From the NCBI GenBank assembly GCA_002812745.2, contig NCSJ02000020.1, forward strand, positions 124,001 to 188,000: a stretch of DNA of 64,000 nucleotides, written 5' to 3'. Source of the DNA: Scytalidium lignicola. Its lineage: Eukaryota; Ascomycota; Leotiomycetes. The position numbers and the translations under genes were made by a program. Positions 38,536-53,100 of this stretch are shown here, one piece after another; position 1 is the stretch's first letter; each line of letters opens with the position of its first letter. The notes under the pieces were generated by a model. The model did not search any database, was not told where the DNA came from, and saw only the letters and a program-made list of their open reading frames with translations.

Positions 38536-38594
38536 AGTACGTACCTATTTTGAATTCGATTGGAAGAGCTAGCGGAATCCGGAACCTGAAGATC

Positions 38595-40910
38595 ATGAGG
38601 GTGTCACAGCCTTCTGAACCACTTTTAGGCGGTAATGACAACAGTGCAATCAATAGTCCAACCTCCCTTAAATATCCAGTCACTGCATACTTATCTGAAT
38701 TAACACTTATCAATATGACACTTGTTTTCAAAACTCCACTTGGATCGCTTACCCAAGTCCAAATCGGACCAGCCGATTTACTGACGACTTTCTCTGCTGC
38801 ATATTCTGCAGCAGGTTGGTTGGGAAGCTTAGATGGTGTACGTTTCTTGGTTTCGGAGGCCAAGAGACTGATTCTTCCAGGAAATAAGCCACACTACACT
38901 GGTTTCAAGGATCTTATTGAAAATCAACCTCGATTTCAGGATTCTAGTTTCTATATCCTTACAAGTGATCACGGCCCATTGCTAGGCAGTATCTCAAACG
39001 CTGATGATGCCTTCGGAGGGGATACAGTCACCCAGGTGATTGGTATGACAATATGTGCATTAGCCCACGAGCTTGGAGGATCTTGTGCCGTCGACTTGTT
39101 TTTAAAATTTCTGGCCCCTAGCGTCTTTGAAATTGCCGAAACTATAGACGCATTACGTGACATACTTCATGAAGAGGAAGTACTGCAGAAGCTTCTCAAC
39201 GAAGGTGTCACACGCGGCCTTCCAGAACAATTTTTGAAGTCAGTTGCAAGCGCAGGGTTACCGGCAGTCAACAGGGAATCGTACTACAAGACACCTCACC
39301 CGGATGATAACAACGAGCCCAACATGGTTGGCGGCCTCCTGAAATGGATTACAGAACGTAAAAGAGACTCATATTGGACAAGGAGCGGCCTAGTTGCCCG
39401 CATTGCTCTCTATCTGAAAGATGTTGGGTACAATATTCGCTCAATTCAACCCTGGGGTGGTTTTCCTCCTACTCCTCGAGCTTCTGCTTCAAGAGCAGTC
39501 ATCCTTGTTCTTGGAGGCTCTGAACAAACCGACCATTTGATGACTGATCTGACTGATACCACTGGTCTCGATTTACAGCTGCACTACACGTTCCAAACTG
39601 TAGGGAGTATGCTACACCAGTCGCTGGCTCCAGAGGTGATAATACGACCAGAAATACTTCAAACAGAGTTTGAATTTATCTTCGATTCGATTGCGTCTCG
39701 TCTTCATGCCTCTTATAGCGCGCCTTTACCTCCAAGAATTCCTGAAACAATGGAAGTCACTTTCGTCTGGTCCAGTGCCAAGAAACCTTCAAGCTCTATT
39801 GAGGCTAAGCTCGCTTCCTTGTATTTTCCGCTGATCGCGGAGCATATTGCTCCATGCTATAGCAAAATAGCAAATGAGAAAATTCTAAACCAAGCTTTAA
39901 AGAGTATTGGCAAAAGAGGTGATGTCAGTGTGTTCACGGAAGAGGAAGCTCAATTTCGTACAACAACTACAGCAATCATTATCTGTCTTGTCTCACGTCT
40001 TTGTGTAACAGATTTTAAGTCCGTTCGCCATTCTACATGTTTAGAATTGCTTTCCCGATTTGGTCAGGACCAAATTTGTGGGATCATCAATCATGGATTC
40101 TCTAGCTCATTAAGCTTGAATGAAGCGGTGGGCCTGATAGCCATAATACACACCGGTATTATGAATTTATCAAAAGTACTCAAGCGAATTGATTCAGCAG
40201 ACCGGGTCATTGGGTGGCGGAACGGGATATACTGCGTACTCCCTTCCCTTCTTCTCAATATGAAGCCATCGGCTTCCTCTGTCGCTATGGAGTGCAAGGA
40301 TGTCTTTTTTGCCAATATTCGTACTCATAATGATGGCTCGATCCGTGATTCATATTCCCCTGCTCGTTCCCCAGAGCTCCACTATCTTCAGCATAATCCC
40401 TATGATACATCTCAACAATCTATAGTCACAACATTGCAGAGCGTCAATCCCTGGATTGGCCCTGTTCAGGTGAGACCTCCAAATCAGCCTCTTTACATTA
40501 ACATCGAACGCCCAATTCAGTTTCGTGAAAGCGATATCTGTCTCGCTGGGCGTCTGGATGGTAATCGTATTGGTGTTGTCTCAATCATCGATGTCTTAGT
40601 TTCCATTGCTCGAAGCGTTGAAATTCCCCCGAAATGTATCCATAAAAATACCGCTAATACTCAGACTGTTCTTAACATTAGCACATCTGAATGGTTAGCA
40701 AATCCAAATGAAAGGCCAGCTGGGACGGCAGAAATTCCAGCATATTTAGCTGTGCATGACAACCCAGCCTGGGCGCTCTTTGCTGCAGGGGAATGTGCGA
40801 ATTTCCACAACGCCATTGTTTTCGAATGCGTAAGCTGCACAATAGAGGCAGTGGCCCGTAGAGTCGATCCTAGTCGAGAGGATGCTGTGGTTCTTATTGG
40901 GTATCAATAG
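38595..40910 (+). CDS. Uncharacterised fungal protein, 771 residues
   Basis: A single uninterrupted frame runs from ATG 38595 (MRVSQPSEPLLGGNDNS) to TAG at 40908-40910. The frame is also open 15 codons further upstream, so an upstream exon is possible. I do not recognise a domain. It is a mixed alpha/beta globular-looking protein with few low-complexity stretches. Segments such as FGGDTVTQVIGMTICALAHE, HPDDNNEPNMVGGLLKWITE, AVILVLGGSEQTDHLMTDL and ASRLHASYSAPLPPRIPE should be useful for a search. No signal peptide or membrane helix is evident. It begins directly after a transposase relic and lies in a relic-rich tract, yet is fully open, which argues that it is functional or recently active. 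Confidence 0.8.
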   Translation: MRVSQPSEPLLGGNDNSAINSPTSLKYPVTAYLSELTLINMTLVFKTPLGSLTQVQIGPADLLTTFSAAYSAAGWLGSLDGVRFLVSEAKRLILPGNKPHYTGFKDLIENQPRFQDSSFYILTSDHGPLLGSISNADDAFGGDTVTQVIGMTICALAHELGGSCAVDLFLKFLAPSVFEIAETIDALRDILHEEEVLQKLLNEGVTRGLPEQFLKSVASAGLPAVNRESYYKTPHPDDNNEPNMVGGLLKWITERKRDSYWTRSGLVARIALYLKDVGYNIRSIQPWGGFPPTPRASASRAVILVLGGSEQTDHLMTDLTDTTGLDLQLHYTFQTVGSMLHQSLAPEVIIRPEILQTEFEFIFDSIASRLHASYSAPLPPRIPETMEVTFVWSSAKKPSSSIEAKLASLYFPLIAEHIAPCYSKIANEKILNQALKSIGKRGDVSVFTEEEAQFRTTTTAIIICLVSRLCVTDFKSVRHSTCLELLSRFGQDQICGIINHGFSSSLSLNEAVGLIAIIHTGIMNLSKVLKRIDSADRVIGWRNGIYCVLPSLLLNMKPSASSVAMECKDVFFANIRTHNDGSIRDSYSPARSPELHYLQHNPYDTSQQSIVTTLQSVNPWIGPVQVRPPNQPLYINIERPIQFRESDICLAGRLDGNRIGVVSIIDVLVSIARSVEIPPKCIHKNTANTQTVLNISTSEWLANPNERPAGTAEIPAYLAVHDNPAWALFAAGECANFHNAIVFECVSCTIEAVARRVDPSREDAVVLIGYQ

Positions 40911-41639
40911 ATCAGGTCCGAAAACCGAAACGGAATTTAGAGAGGCCGATTGGGACGTGAAACTCATATAATATTGTTGCAGTACGACTTATCGTCTGGT
41001 ATATAGGTCTGGCCGTCACAACTATTAGCTTAAGTAGTTGGCCGAACTCTCGTTCTGGCCGTTGTCAATCAATCATCAAGCCATCATGCATTCATTAGAT
41101 ATGGTATCGACTTGCCTAGTGAAGGACAGGCTGGCCTGCTGCTGTCTTGCCATCACTGGCATTCTTCCTTGGTAATGATGGAATGCCTGGGAGAACTAAG
41201 CGTATATATTTCTTTGTCAAGTCCGTATAACCTCTTGACGGCAATTTCAACCATGGTGCGGACGCTAATCTGTGAGACCATGGCTTCTTCACATGTTATA
41301 TTGCGCGATTTGTCAACACTGCTTAAAATTTCACCCTTAGATGAAAGTGGAAATGGTAATTGACGTGGCTGATCAAACACGTATCATGTAATATTGGGTA
41401 TGAACCATTATGTCGGAGTGGATTCTTAAAGTGATAGTAATTATCGATGCCAGTACAGCCGAAATGACCTTCTCCCAAAAATGACTGACTGACGAGGAAG
41501 CCAACACACATAGTAGTGTAGGGATCCTGTTTTGGCTCCCGTATGTCCTTAATTGGTTCTCATGGAGAGCCCACCATGGGTGGTGATGATGACAACAACT
41601 CAACTTCAATTTTCGTCCCCTGTCTATGTTTTGAGAATC
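40911..41639. other. Intergenic between the 771-residue ORF and the motif array
   Basis: I see no gene, and no clear copy of the array motif, in these 729 bases. A GAACTCTCG at 41045-41053 is at most a chance echo of the motif. Confidence 0.5.
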
Positions 41640-43374
41640 AGCGCTATTTCTCTCGGCATATATCACATATATCACTAGTTGATAGTCTTTGAATTTTCGT
41701 TGCCGTTCGGAATCCTTAGTCCTTTCTATAAAGCTCGGCGTGTTTCATTTCCCCTTATTGTCTTTGTATATACATCCGTCATTGCTTGTCTATATCTCAA
41801 CAACCAACGCTATATATCTCACCATACTACACTATCCATGATAATTTGCATAATCGTTGCTTGTCTGTATTTCTAAATCAACGCTATATGTCTTGACATC
41901 TTGCATCAGATGTTTGTCTTCTGTCTGCTTGAGAAAATATGCGCTATAGTTCTCGGCATGATGTTCTATCATGACAGTATCTGTATATACGTTGCTTGTC
42001 TTGATTTCTCAATCCTCACTATATTTCTCGACATATTATATTAATTTACGTTGTCTATCTACGTCAGATGATAGCGCTATATCTTTTGGAATGTTGGGGA
42101 TAACTGTTTATGCCTGTTGCTTATCTATACTTCCTGACCCAGCGGTAAAAGACTTAGCACATCCTGTCTGATATCCTCAAAGGTAAGCGAAATGTCGTTG
42201 CACCTCTGCCTCCTTAGTTCGATCACTATAGGTCTCGGCCAGTTCAAATCTCCACTGCAGTTTTAATCTCGTTGCTTGTCTGAATCTCATGCATTAGCGC
42301 TATAGATCTCGGCACATCTAGTACAACGGTTTGTGAGTTGGATGTCTGTTGCATCTCTATTTCGACATTCTAGCGCTATAACTCTCGGCATGCAATGCAA
42401 TGTAAACCCCTAGTCAAGATCAACTCTTCGGATAGAAGGCTTCCCACGTTCTACGTCTCTAATGTGAAATATTGGCTGCACTCGTTCTTAGTATACTCTT
42501 TATCCCCATTCCCCAACTAGCACTATAACACTATGTAAACATGCCTGGCCACCTAGTTCTTCTATTAGATTTACCCCTTTTTTATAAGTTCATATAATCA
42601 CTTTCTTAAATGGAATATTCAACATCCTAAATTTTCAACTAAGAAATTCAAAGCCCTTTAGGTTCCTCTTTGTGTGCAAGGTAGCCCAGGATCTACTTGA
42701 TCTCTATTCCACACATTTAGTGCTACAACTCTTGCTCAATCCATGACAATTAAAGAATGACATTCCGTTGCATCTCTGATTTTATAAACCATCACTATAA
42801 CTCTCGGCACATGTTTGCAAGCCTCAGTAGGATTATGCGTTTAGATATGGGTACAAGATATGTGGAATCCGTTGCGTCTCTGCTCTACTAGTCTCAATGC
42901 TAAGGTCTCGGCACATCATAACTAGGAATAACAGTCCAGAGAATGAGACTCTGTTGCTTCGCTACCTTTGAGGAGCTAGTTTATAACAAAGTCTCAAAAT
43001 ATTTTATTGCTTATCTTGCTCCTAAATTAAGCGCTATATCTCTCGGCAGATCATGTCTTTAGAGTGTAAATGTCTGGACATAAATATTCGTCACATATCT
43101 AACCTTTGTAAACCAGCACTATAAACCTTGGCATATAAACTAGAATCGATTATTCTTGAATCCTTTATGTTGCGTCTCTGACTTCCCTATATGACGCTAT
43201 TACTCTCGGCGTGTTGTGTTTCCGTCTGTGAAGTTAGACACCAAAGATTTGTTACTTATCTAGCTTCTGAACAAGCGCTATAACTCTCGGCGTAATTTAG
43301 AGTTCACATTTAGGGATTGATTCAGAAATTGTTGCATCTCAGGGTTACCCAAACCATCACTATATAGGTCGGCA
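41640..43374. repeat. Degenerate array of about 21 copies of a bipartite motif, period about 77 bases
   Basis: The plus strand repeats a two-block module. Block 1 is near GTTGCWTSTCT (W = A/T, S = C/G; typical copies GTTGCATCTCT and GTTGCTTGTCT). Block 2 is near AGCGCTATAACTCTCGGCA. The blocks are separated by 12-14 bases of unrelated sequence. Block 2 starts near 41640, 41722, 41806, 41880, 41940, 42014, 42072, 42141, 42221, 42295, 42371, 42519, 42718, 42791, 42893, 42976, 43029, 43113, 43193, 43273 and 43355. Spacing is 53-102 bases except across 42391-42717, where copies are weak. The 20-50 bases between modules differ from copy to copy. Distances are not multiples of three and stops occur in all frames, so it is not a repeated peptide. 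It lies between two convergent genes. The function is unknown. Confidence 0.85.
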
Positions 43375-43665
43375 AGTTGCAGCGTAGTTCCTGAGAACAC
43401 CTAGCGGTATGATCTTGAATAACGCAATGAGTTGATTTATAAACATTTTGTGACACAGGGAATGAGGACATGTAATTGTCCGCCATTTCAACAGTACATT
43501 ATTTTCGGAGACGTCAGACCTAAGATTATACTAACAGCACATATGAACCAGACAAATGTTATTATGGACTAATCCCACATTATAGAGATAAACACTAATC
43601 TCTCTATCTTTTCTAGGGGTTGAAAGTCCCCAATTCTTAATTCTTAAGAAGCCAAACCTTGTGCC

Positions 43666-44734
43666 TCATCTCGCCACACACAAATCTGACCGTATAACCC
43701 ACTTCTCTCCCTCTTTTACCTCCCTACCCTCGTGCTAATTCCACCATAAGCAAGAGAAAATCCATGGAGAGCTCTAAATATCACTTACTAATAAACAATC
43801 ACTTCCGTGCTTATGCAACAATAGCATCCCCGTCTCAAGACCTACAACAACGGCGTTCTCATCAGAAGTATTGTTCTCATCTAAATAGAATGCTGTCTCT
43901 CCTCCAATGCAGCCTGTTGCAGGAGACGTGAGGTACAAGAGAATTGTCCAGGTTGTTCTGGCGGGCGTGGCGACAGGAGTGGTAGACAGGGTTACCAAAT
44001 TGGAGTCATCATCTGTTCGAGAAAGTAAGAACAAGAGATTTAGAATATTAAAAGATTAAAAACGAAATATCAACTCCCGGATCGCCAAAATAAGAAATGA
44101 GAGAAGAGAATAGAAATAAAACCCAAAAGCAAATCAGAAACAAGAAAAATAAAACCACCTACAATGACAATCGAAGAATTGCCCCTTGCCGTATCTATAA
44201 ATCCGAATATTCGGATTCAACCCAATGACTTCTCCTCCCCTAAATCCCGTTGCTCTTAGTTCAAAACTTTAAGGTTCAATTCAATTCAGTTCGTTGCAAG
44301 AAACTCACCACAACCGTCTCCTCTCCTCCTTACTCATCTCATCTTCTGTCTCCCCATCACCATCACCACAAACACACTCCCTCAACCCCGTCTCCGTCCA
44401 CAACCTCTCCGCAAACACCGGATCATCGACCTGAAACCGATCATTAACCCTCACTGCATGGCCCTTCTTTGGTCTTCCGGGCGTAGTGGTCAGCGGGAGG
44501 GTCTTGAGGAAGGAGACGTAGGTTTTGCAGAGCTTTGAGGTCCAGAAGTTGGGGATTGTGAGGATTTGGGATGGGAGGAGGATTTGGAGGGTTAATGGGG
44601 CTTGCTGGAATGGGGTGCGGAGTGGGAGGGAGATGAGAGGCCAGTTTGGGGGTGGTGGTGGGGTGGGTTTTGCGGGGGTGGTTGTTGTTGGTGGTGGTTT
44701 CTTGGTAGCTGGGTGCTTTTTNCTTGGTTGACAT
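43666..44734 (-). CDS. 2-oxoglutarate/Fe(II) oxygenase (prolyl 4-hydroxylase-like fold), 4 exons
   Basis: Exons are 44734-44309, 44239-44163, 44012-43789 and 43734-43666. Treating the N at 44722 (in an A-run on the coding strand) as surplus gives 264 residues with every phase consistent. The N-terminus is a K/P/T-rich linker. The fold begins LQILLPSQILTIPNFWTSKL, and a basic GRPKKGHAVRVNDRFQVDDP follows. IGLNPNIRIYRYGKGQFFDC leads to the iron site H-Y-D-D (HYDDSNLV). GGETAFYL, LLLHKHGSDC and the last exon's HEGREVKEGEKWVIRSDLCV complete the double-stranded beta-helix. Such fungal proteins hydroxylate proline or related residues; the target is unknown. Exon 4 lies 291 bases from the motif array. 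Confidence 0.88.
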
Positions 44735-46587
44735 GGTGGGCTTTTGGTTAGATCTCTGTTGTATTATGGTTTGTTTTATAGGAAACGGAGTTTGTTTGAA
44801 TGAGGCGTTAGGTGGGAATGTTGATGTTGGTGTTGATGTTGAAGTGCCTTGGTGTGGTTTTAATACTTTTGATAGATATACGGTCATTCATCGGTACTTT
44901 TTNCTTCATTTTTTACCTACGAAGCTTGGTAGATTTGGAGGTGCTTTTATTAACACAGCATATAATTGCCTTTTTGTCTAGATCAAGAAGTATTTAATAC
45001 GGTTAAGTTAGAAGTATATTTTGGCTTGTTAAGTCTCATGCCCCAAAAAANGTAAAAGATAAAAAGATGCTGGATCTCTGAAAGACTCAAATAAGCAGCA
45101 GTTACAAAATGCGACCCCTTTTATTTACCTCTTCTTTCTTTTTTTCTCTTCAATTGCTATAACAATCTAATTACAATGGGTATGCACACAAAGTTCCTGA
45201 TGGCAGCACAGTCTCCGGCAGTATGACGAGGTAATTTAATAACAGCCTGAAGTGTCATTATAGTCTCCTTCAAACCAGACTTAATTATGGCTGGAATCTC
45301 AGTTGGATGATGTTCTCTGAGCATTGATATCCTTAAGATACACTCCATCAAGTCATACGACCGATTAAATAAAGGTGTAATCGGACTTTGCTGGCTTTAT
45401 TTGGGCTGAGAGACCTTTTGAAAAGGAATAAGCCGTGCATCTAGACCTCGAGACCTTGAGACAAGCTACAGTTAAAACTAGCTCAAAGGTGCAGGTCTAA
45501 TTATATAAGTGGCTTGGTGGAGCGGCGCATGCGAGTAATTATCCTCGCACAAAAAGTAAAGTACAGTAGTGATGTTTCACTTGCTTTGTGCTAGCCTAGA
45601 CACACTTATGGTCATGATCAGAACGTGGCTGGTGTTGCAGAAACCACATTGATTTCTTCTATGCGGAGAAGGAAGAGAAATTGCTAATTAGGATAATGAT
45701 AATTGGGGTTTTCAAAAAGTATTGTAATCCTGCTCTTGGTATGAGGATTTTCTCATCGTGAGAGATGTACAGTAGTATTTGGCAAATGGTCGTAATTAAG
45801 AGGATAGAGTTTCATCAAGTTTGACTTGTATCTTTTTCGAAACAGGAACGGAAATTCTTGATGTTTGTGATGCACTAGCTCGAGTAGAGGGCTGTTGATC
45901 GATGGTTGATCGATACCTCATCATGACACATGTAAATTATTTACGTCAGGGGTTTAACTTATCGTCATGTGTTAGTTTTAGATTGGATTTGGGTTAGGTT
46001 GGAGGGAAAAGGTGCTTGGATCGAAGCAAGAAAGAGTAATAGTGTTAAGAGGTAACTTAGAAAGAGATTGTAAACTACAAGATAGCAGAAGAAAATAAAA
46101 CCGGGTTGTAGAAGGGAAGGTAGAAGTAATTACTAGACAAGGGGAATTACCTTGTTGAGAGTAGCGAGTGGATGTGTATTTGTGAAGATGCGACAAGCAG
46201 CGTTACGAGAGGGTCGGGTCGGGTCCCGGGTAAGATTGGATCGACTTTTGGCTGAAATTGATTGATTAATATTGATTATGCGATGGCGGGCCGTGGTTTG
46301 TGGTGTGTTACAGCAAGCGGGTTTGAAGAATACGAGACTGGTTACAAGTTTACATACATTGTACGATCTGTAGCAGTCTTGTTACGGTACTTGCAAAAAG
46401 GGACCAGCTCACGAGAATGAAGTCTGAGATTCCCTAGGAGGAGGAAGCTTGTTACAGTAGACCTGAATTGCTTATCTCTCCCAACGCTCTGGCACCGGCC
46501 AAGTTAAGTTGCCATCGCGCGACTCCACCGGGCGGACAGGTCCCATTCCCATTCCTGCTCCAATCCACCTGCCTGCAGCAGCGTAGA

Positions 46588-50107: not shown

Positions 50108-53100
50108 AGGTTTTTTTTTTGTTTTTTGCGCGCAGCTCTAGGCATGTGTGCTAATCTACAATTATTTCGATATCCGTTCCGGCGTTTCGAGGGTTAAATT
50201 CTAATGTACAGCATTTCCGGCCCGGTTTTAATGGCTGGCTGATCTTCCAGCAAAAATTCCTTGGATGTTTCCAGATGTTGAGATGCTGTACTTAAAGTGA
50301 AGTGTGGGATTACAGTTTATGTCTCACTGCTGATCCAAAAGGTCTTTAGATATTTTTCTCTGAGGCCTTATTTTTTCCTACTTTTTTTTTTTGCTGTATA
50401 TACAGGGGAGCCTGCTACGTCCATTCTAATTTTTCCTTCCTGATATAAAAAGGATATCGATAGAATATCCAACAAAACGGAACCGCATCTGAGCGAACCG
50501 GGCTTTTTGAAGGACAAAAAGGCACATGCCTTGTGGTTGAGGAAGGAAACATGCCGTTGATTTGTTTGTTATATTTTCCTTTCCATGTAATGGAAAGGAA
50601 CTTTGGGTGGTTTTTCAAATAGCTGGAATTTTGGATGGCTTGGAATTGCCGCGTATACCTTATATTGGAGAGCCTGATCACGATGGATTGAGAGGTTGGA
50701 GGGAGGGACCTTTTCTTCATTTTAGGAGGGAACTTTTAGGTAGCTTCCGTCACGTCCATGAAATAGAGAGAGAGATGCTTGTTCTACTTGGTATATCCTG
50801 GATTGATTTTTGCAGCATGTCATTATGTATACTGTATACGTACGTCCCTGAACAATTGTAAAGTGCTTGAAACGCAATGGTTTGAGTTTAGGTAGGTTGA
50901 TTACCAGATTTGATGGATATCCTGGCGGTACAGGCTTTTGTCTGTACGGAGAACAAAAGAAAAAAAGACTGTTATTTTTATGATTGATATCTCCTTTGTG
51001 TAAAATCCCGCCACTGTATGTATGTATGCTGCCTGAATCTAGTTTAAATCGTGAAGATAGTCCTTCATGTAACTCCTCCATGTCGAGCTCTATAGTGAAG
51101 GATTTCCGACTCAGACTCGCAACGGAAAATGAAATGCAATGCAATGCAATGCTCTCCCTTTTTATGGCTTTCTTTTCTTTCTCTTTTGTCTCAGCAAGTA
51201 TGGAAAAGGATATGATATGTTTGATATTTCTTGACTATGATTCCTTACGCGTATGATGTTTGTTTGCTGGATATGGAGGGAAATAATGTTTGCTTTTGTA
51301 ATATTTGCCTTTTTTTTTGTATTTTGTTTCTTTTTGCTTTTTGTGCATGGGGCTGGAATGTATGTGTACTAATGATCCCTCGCCGCAGCCGTTGTTTCTC
51401 CTTACCCGTTTCAAGGATGGAGAGCAGGCATCCTTTACGGTAATTATTGTCTCAAAGCTAATTTTGATGTTGGTACTCCGTACTCTTGTCGCAAATCCTT
51501 GGTACTTATATAATTCATTTTTCTAGACTGCACAAGAGGTACAAATAGATTTGTAGATTTGTGGCTTCTCACACTAGTCTTCAAAGATTTTGTTTAGCCC
51601 CTTTCCCTTCCTGCGGATCTTTTGATGCGTTGTCTCTTTGTTAAAATTTCCGATTATGCACGAGAGCACATGAAAAGGGTTATCGAATGACAGGTCATTT
51701 CCCCCCTAACAGACCTTGGGCCACATCTAATCGTATTGCAAACCGCCTTTTTTTTGCGGAGAGGCGGAGAGGCTCCCTGGAGTAGTAGAACCTTTAAAAT
51801 TACAGTGTTACAATTACTCGGGCGTGAGGCGGTCAAGACGTCGAGTGATGATATTAAGTTATGCAGGGCGGTGTTGGTCTAGGTGCTAAGCCTGGCGACT
51901 TGACTTCTATTGAGATAGGAATACATGTCTTCACCACCAAACACATACATTTACTCTATGTAGAGCAAGAAATTATGTAGCGTATCCTATAGAGAATACT
52001 ATGTGTATGAGTTACCTATCTTTCCAAGATCGTTGCGGGCCACAAGAGTGTTCACGTGACCTTCTGATGGAAAAGCCCTGATGAGACAACTGCATTTCCG
52101 AGTCCTTCGTACTTACGTACACGAGCAATTAGAAAGAGACTATATTTTAGCTCCTGCGCCCGTTTTTGGCGTGGTTGGCGGCCGTTTCTAGTTTTGGGTG
52201 TTTTGATGGGTGTGTTCCACAGCATTATAGATGAGGTAAAGCGAGGTTCTCTATATGCAGGACTTAACTCCCTTTGTACTGTACCGTGGCGTCGGAATCA
52301 GATAGTGCAGCTGTACTGGTTTAGCCAATTGGCTATTTGGCCACTGTGAGAGGAACCTTTAGCATCTGGGGCTTCTTCAACCCATTGGTTGTACTGTACA
52401 TTCAGACCGCCTCTTTTACCCACCAATCCCATATAGCTTGATGCACTTTAAACGTCAGTCTGCGTGACCGAACGGATGATGGATGTTTAGCAGAGATAAT
52501 GCACAGCCATCTTCTCCGAGTGCATAAAAACAGAAGACCCTAGACTGTGGGCACAGTCTCTGGGCAAAATTAAATCCTATGCAATGCTGTAAACACCTAC
52601 TCAACAGAACATGCCTCCCCTCATCAATCTAGCTAAGCCACCACCTAGATCTTAATTGCCCGGATTTTGTCTCGTTCAACCTCTTGCTTGTAGCTATATT
52701 CTCCTTGTATAGTCCAGCAGACCAAATAAGGCGTTGTGGGCTACGCCGCATTTGATGGAGAGTAAGCCGCCAACACCAGACTGCTACCAATCCCATCTGA
52801 TATCGATGCAAGCCGACGCCTTGCCTCTGAACACGGGCTATGGTTACATCGTGGCACGCCGAGCAGGCGGTCGGAATGTGTAGCCATGGCTGTTTAACAG
52901 GCCTTTCAATACTCCGGTTGGGAGGCGTTGAAAGGTGATTCGCGTCATGCCCCTTGTTCTCAGCTGGATCCATGACGCCCGACAATCCGGTAATGGGACA
53001 TCAAGGCGCGCGTCATTGTAGGACTACAATGATCAATGCCACGAGGAACGAACACATAAACAATGGACCCTATCCGTTTCAATCGTGCCAACCCTGTCGG

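Follow-up and report, generated by a model that had tools for sequence, protein, structure and literature searches.

An array of oriented two-block modules

What keeps short blocks of noncoding sequence alike when the DNA between them has become unrelated? The question is raised by a locus in the genome of Scytalidium lignicola, a mould of wood and soil that belongs to the Leotiomycetes. The locus lies in a stretch of 64,000 nucleotides (hereafter the window), for which a preliminary description had reported about 21 degenerate copies of a two-block motif, all in one orientation and recurring about every 77 bases over 1.7 kb. Our scan used a two-block profile built from 65 modules at other loci, none of them taken from the window. 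It finds 17 firm modules, all on the plus strand, whose block 2 starts between 41,640 and 43,356; the one other site above threshold in the 64-kb window is a lone minus-strand module at 51,099. The array is thus real in its place, single orientation, spacing and two blocks, as judged by an independently trained model. As to the copy number, 17 copies hold firm, and the remaining four or so, near 42,515, 42,692, 42,871 and 42,951, are degenerate.

The same model gives no match in 20 windows simulated with an order-1 Markov model, where the top score is 7.2 as compared to 15.8-51.8 in the array. At no more than three mismatches, GCTATAACTCTCGGC occurs 11 times in the window, ten times within the array, whereas 1.15 matches are expected and 100 shuffled windows yield a maximum of four. 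A direct-repeat search of the window recovers a block-2 family (11 copies) and a whole-module family (five copies). Tandem Repeats Finder reports a single two-copy fragment in the array (41,791-41,835), because the unit is mostly unrepeated. The sequence between modules is indeed unrelated, as had been proposed: of 91 spacer pairs in the window array, one lies above the 99th percentile of pairs taken between loci. The features are listed below; each module is delimited at about 26 bp before and about 19 bp after the base with which block 2 begins.

41595..43400, plus strand: whole array, 17 firm and about four degenerate modules, unrelated AT-rich spacers
41614..41659, plus strand: module 1 (block 2 from 41640), score 32.3
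41696..41741, plus strand: module 2, degenerate, score 15.8
41780..41825, plus strand: module 3, score 25.9
41854..41899, plus strand: module 4, score 31.9
41914..41959, plus strand: module 5, score 22.6
41989..42034, plus strand: module 6, score 36.0
42047..42092, plus strand: module 7, block 2 degenerate, score 17.8
42115..42160, plus strand: module 8, block 2 degenerate, score 21.1
42196..42241, plus strand: module 9, score 37.2
42270..42315, plus strand: module 10, score 39.9
42346..42391, plus strand: module 11, GCTATAACTCTCGGC exact, score 46.5
42515..42538, plus strand: block 2 alone, degenerate (9.9 bits, block 2 from 42519), direct-repeat family D5
42692..42737, plus strand: degenerate module, direct-repeat family D3, 63% to module 11
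42765..42810, plus strand: module 12, top match of the array, score 51.8
42871..42917, plus strand: block 1 good (GTTGCGTCTCTG), block 2 damaged (AATGCTAAGGTCTCGGCAC), direct-repeat families D8 and D11
42951..42964, plus strand: remnant of block 1 (CTGTTGCTTCGCTA), direct-repeat family D9
43004..43049, plus strand: module 13, score 39.2
43089..43134, plus strand: module 14, score 33.2
43167..43212, plus strand: module 15, score 28.5
43248..43293, plus strand: module 16, score 35.1
43330..43375, plus strand: module 17, score 34.7
51080..51125, minus strand: lone, well-preserved module, opposite in strand to the array and about 8 kb away, score 45.1

Anatomy of the module

Across 143 modules, the consensus reads TTTT-CGTTGC-N3-TCT-N7..9-AAAnYC-A[G/T]C[G/A]CTATA-N3-CTCGGCAT, in which the T-tract is weak and AAAnYC and N3 are loose. 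Block 1 corresponds to CGTTGC-N3-TCT and block 2 to C[A/G]CTATA-N3-CTCGGC. The information content amounts to 43.6 bits over 45 columns, and outside a span from 8 bp ahead of block 1 to 22 bp past the start of block 2 no column rises above 0.1 bit. Measured between the first G of block 1 and the first base of block 2, the two blocks are 24 or 25 bp apart in 123 out of 143 modules, the scan admitting 23-27 bp; a separation fixed in this way would fit two linked contact regions. In about 20% of the modules CTATA is replaced by CTAAA.

Block 2 occurs in two versions, TCAC and GCGC, and its positions 1 and 3 are tightly coupled (67 T..A, 54 G..G and 10 G..A among the 143 modules). This coupling is no base pair; it fits two accepted versions of the site. 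The two module types do not alternate along the arrays beyond expectation (27 changes versus 24.3 expected, P 0.23). Helical phasing of the spacings was considered and rejected: a signal at 11 bp (p about 0.001) is lost when the 78-84 bp class is removed (p 0.29).

One resemblance to a known binding site deserves mention. The CENP-B box begins with TTCGTTG, its core continuing A..CGGG, and the T-tract and block 1 of the module likewise begin with TTCGTTG. The columns of block 1 then continue C-N3-TCT and are without the CGGG half, so that the CENP-B box (core NTTCGNNNNANNCGGGN) was discarded as a candidate.

A dispersed family in the genome

The genome searched, which matches that of the leaf-litter isolate S. 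lignicola DSM 105466, has 46.85 Mb in 664 contigs; this version is somewhat smaller than the published assembly of 47.7 Mb in 826 contigs (PMC6256649). Over the whole genome, 69 sites match the two-block pattern exactly, and none matches its reverse. With the two-block model we scanned 47 stretches, i.e. the window, 32 candidate loci and 14 small windows at weaker matches. Modules are present in 31 of them, 152 in total; the same stretches read in reverse contain none. Five of the positive stretches hold a single module, 26 hold at least two and 17 at least four, while the other 16 stretches show one-block look-alikes and no module. Nor is there a module in 18 further stretches outside the 47 (12 repeat copies and six snRNA loci). 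Very degenerate modules are missed because the profile was trained on a clear block 1 (75 out of 104 modules, with TTGC...TC); the census of lone or degenerate modules is a lower bound, and the family occupies at least 31 loci.

Neighboring modules lie on the same strand in 116 out of 120 pairs. Their spacing has a median of 81.5 bp over the 84 spacings of up to 115 bp, and a second group lies at 154-180 bp. The main exception to the rule of one orientation is the locus L014 (L014:2973-3723), whose sub-arrays diverge, with six modules on the minus strand and three on the plus strand.

Outside this genome, the module pattern has no match in viral contigs and one isolated match in 257 Gb of prokaryote DNA, which we take as chance. 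Among the papers that the literature searches listed, judged by titles and the openings of abstracts, we met no description of such arrays, which is weak evidence of absence. The preliminary description had stated that it would be refuted by a profile search revealing dispersed copies of a known satellite or transposon; dispersed copies were found, and no recognizable satellite or transposon is among them.

Genomic surroundings

The arrays are situated among ordinary genes. Pfam families are matched by 22 out of 30 longer flanking frames (one match lies below its cut-off) and include oxysterol-binding protein, Urb2, NAD kinase, Rap1, IFRD, P450, PP2C and others. Among these 30 frames, to which the analysis was confined, no transposon family is matched. 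A flanking NAD kinase is 100% identical to a protein of S. lignicola; among the matches listed for it, the nearest other named species is Xylogone sp. PMI_703 at 88%.

The nearest coding segments, some of them weak, turn their 3' side toward the array in 26 out of 35 cases (p 0.006 versus one half). Among random noncoding points of the window, a small null taken from one window, 39% are 3'-facing. The suggestion that the array sits between convergent genes gains some support from these figures, as far as so small a null allows. At the window array itself, a plus-strand gene ends at 40,910 on the left and a minus-strand coding segment extends from 44,323 to 44,754 on the right, so that the flanking pair is probably convergent. 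The left-hand gene (38550-40910, plus strand) is without a Pfam match; not counting itself, it has 15 relatives with identities of 31-64%, and those with a name belong to Penicillium, Pseudogymnoascus, Aspergillus and lichen fungi. A placement on the 3' side of genes would speak against promoters and enhancers.

Spacer divergence and the case for selection

Within arrays, 11 out of 199 spacer pairs exceed the between-array 99th percentile, and eight of these 11 sit in L009, L024 and L031. Spacers that are mostly unrelated, with a few related ones, fit local duplication followed by drift. A classical satellite, in which the whole unit would be alike, was rejected on the same count.

The most direct comparison is provided by the arrays of L014 and L016, which are homologous over about 300 bp according to a plain blastn match that also covers the spacers. 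The core is identical at 63 out of 65 positions (97%) and the spacers at 129 out of 162 (80%; Fisher p = 4e-4), the core figure being somewhat inflated because the core was defined within the same family and the pair is a single one. Non-core module positions are identical in 53 out of 71 cases. The difference between core and spacers points to selection on the blocks and not to satellite decay, which is what the preliminary description had supposed; the confinement of information to the module agrees with this, and uniform decay, which would have spoken against it, is not what this homologous pair displays, since it keeps its blocks.

It is nevertheless conceivable that the arrays are debris of an old satellite or transposon, i.e. 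of an 80-bp repeat that spread long ago and is now decaying, its blocks surviving by chance or by gene conversion. The related spacer pairs in L009, L024 and L031 resemble what young arrays would show; the array of contig C253 (L051), with one strong and four weak modules, looks as if it were decaying; L014 and L016 have a duplicated stretch in common; and stretches of 90-190 bp at 68-72%, spanning modules and spacers, connect L009, L014, L016 and L017. Neutral decay, however, would not be expected to leave the core at 97% beside spacers at 80%, nor module limits that are equally sharp across loci. The 30 flanking frames are free of transposon domains, and beyond the arrays nothing is common to the loci except a separate repeat (L009 and L026) and one 52-bp match, of L012 to a stretch that holds no module. 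We regard debris as quite unlikely and selection on the blocks as the better account.

Possible transposon links and a separate repeat

That the module matches no known transposon part, as had been stated, agrees with the 30 flanking frames and with the lack of shared ends or flanks other than these two matches; a transposon part was accordingly rejected. The separate repeat just mentioned is dispersed and about 246 bp long (L009:4080-4330, i.e. G000:C26:47,579-47,829), with 42 matches in the genome. Four module loci have copies of it within about 1 kb, five copies in all (L009, L026 twice, L036 and L039), which exceeds chance by rough arithmetic (expected under 0.1). As a partner of the module it was rejected, because 12 out of 12 copies fetched from elsewhere are module-free in the surrounding 1.4-1.5 kb.

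These observations bear on a further alternative, in which the modules are targets of the own DNA-binding protein of a selfish element, left or seeded in intergenic DNA. The model for such a system is VANC (PMC5735166): the VANC21 motif has nine bases (YAGTATTAY) and lies within Arabidopsis VANDAL transposons, where short VANC motifs occupy tandem repeats, noncoding ones, that undergo expansion and turnover. The points of resemblance are short conserved motifs, their accumulation as noncoding tandem repeats amid changing surroundings, the presence of two motif types side by side, and a conservation that is explained for VANC by protein binding. The proximity of the separate repeat to four loci could be read in the same direction, and so could the many CENP-B-type helix-turn-helix domains of the genome, for which a scan with HTH_Tnp_Tc5 gives 92 matches at E<=0.01 and singles out no binder. 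Unlike VANC targets, however, the module is 45 bp long with 43.6 bits, far longer than the nine bases of VANC21, and lies among ordinary genes; there is no transposon domain in the 30 flanking frames, and the separate-repeat copies elsewhere are without a module. Targets of a selfish element thus appear most improbable. Many of the HTH_Tnp_Tc5 matches contain in-frame stops, as would be expected of pogo/Fot1-type transposons in decay.

Coding, RNA and promoter tests

The array had been described as neither coding nor a tRNA array, and both statements are borne out. No segment inside the arrays of 27 loci obtains a coding score under a model whose noncoding background included array sequence; the module spacing is not in threes; and ARAGORN finds no tRNA gene in the window. 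The L013 array overlaps with one open frame of 136 codons.

A structured noncoding RNA, which had been listed among the candidate roles, finds no support in the tests made. At the gathering score, Rfam yields no match in the window and none in 20 loci (L048-L061 left out); a permissive scan of 10 loci (E<=1) gives a single match, MIR169_2, with 20.6 bits and E 0.58 against a gathering score of 50. RNAalifold predicts no consensus pair over 88 modules (those scoring at least 20 among 104). Of 5,995 possible five-pair helices over 122 columns none is convincing, the best reaching a z of 3.9 with 24% paired cells, and neither is any helix among the top 40 column pairs by corrected mutual information. 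Two helices proposed by eye, TTTCG/CGAAA and GAG/CTC, pair no better than shuffled sequence. The folding energy, computed on 120-nt windows, has a mean z of 0.17 for modules in sense and -0.15 in antisense (69 windows), close to the -0.02 of the flanks (64 windows); values below -2 occur slightly more often on modules (7% in sense and 10% in antisense) than they do in flanks (3%).

Each array could still be transcribed as one long, unstructured RNA, with the repeated blocks as sites for an RNA-binding protein. The coherent orientation (116 out of 120) would agree with this, as would those arrays that lie downstream of a same-strand gene (L015, L029 and L031, for example). Yet the orientation of arrays with respect to neighboring genes varies, L014 holds two oppositely directed sub-arrays, and there is neither an Rfam family at gathering score nor a helix nor a signal in mean folding energy. 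A long RNA of this kind is, in our judgement, quite improbable.

Another possibility is an array of small transcription units, with the module as a minimal promoter (an upstream element and the TATA-like CTATAA) and a short RNA produced from each spacer. The conserved two-part motif followed by unrelated sequence, the near-fixed distance from the upstream block to CTATA and the single orientation are all compatible with such an arrangement. A precedent is offered by the nematode Ruby-motif piRNA loci (PMC6436959), which have a conserved upstream motif followed by unrelated sequence in many dispersed or clustered units, the Ruby motif itself deriving from the snRNA promoter. Unlike the Ruby loci, the module arrays have no initiator signal, since no column from +22 to +59 on the 3' side of the module rises above 0.12 bit, and modules are absent from U6, U2 and U5. 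Within 1.5 kb on either side of six matches to these snRNAs (three U6, one of them below the cut-off, two U2 and one U5) there are no modules, so that these snRNA genes do not use the module as their promoter, and an snRNA promoter was dismissed. Moreover, CTATA becomes CTAAA in about 20% of the modules, and the 5' sides of genes seldom host arrays (9 out of 35 nearest segments). We consider small transcription units unlikely. The U6 matches are rather weak, with 69, 47 and 36 bits for L042 (G000:C33:222,316-222,428), L043 and L044 at a cut-off of 44.

A putative DNA-binding platform

No family that was tested explains the module arrays, and among the roles previously put forward a multi-site DNA-binding platform, still putative, fits best. 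The window array is one of at least 31 loci with an oriented 45-bp two-block site, and we propose with moderate confidence that the most likely reader of this site is a single protein of high specificity, which would bind it as double-stranded DNA. Most transcription factors need far fewer than 43.6 bits. With a value so far above the usual need, either shared ancestry of the modules must contribute, or what reads them would have to be an RNA or else a DNA-binding domain of very great length. A genome scan for C2H2 fingers gives 143 matches with up to six fingers per frame (C660) and singles out no binder; the six-finger frame we take to be perhaps TFIIIA.

The mechanism that we propose starts with one candidate protein whose two contact regions would read the module as double-stranded DNA. 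Arrays would lengthen as a unit of about 80 bp is duplicated locally in tandem, after which the spacers would drift and the modules be kept, in our proposal because cooperative, multivalent occupancy calls for many sites at each locus. In intergenic DNA on the 3' side of genes, the chromatin would thereby acquire a local state, be it boundary, silencing or anchoring. The coherent orientation may be a mere reflection of tandem duplication.

Two systems of chromosome organization in animals invite comparison. The dispersed pairing centers of Caenorhabditis elegans (HIM-8/ZIM) are clusters of a zinc-finger motif that serve as a chromosome platform; the dispersed clusters are alike in both cases, whereas the module is much longer than the motif of about 12 bp. 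Species of Scytalidium are generally without a sexual state (PMC6256649). The module arrays also resemble clustered CTCF or boundary sites of animals, being oriented recognition sites clustered in intergenic DNA. CTCF sites are long and partly bipartite. According to a 2023 review (PMC10246852), however, CTCF occurs in higher metazoans only, and the boundary elements of fungi are incompletely characterized.

It is a speculative and, at present, doubtful extension that the loci form a fungal system of chromosome architecture, in which about 30 oriented and mostly multi-site platforms would be occupied by a long-footprint protein other than CTCF and act as boundaries or anchors in intergenic DNA on the 3' side of genes. 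If true, this would be a boundary element of a kind not fully characterized in fungi. In any case, a noncoding module of 45 bp is conserved at no fewer than 31 places of one fungal genome while its surroundings drift. The module is itself a ready bait for its candidate protein, and hence the question is directly testable.
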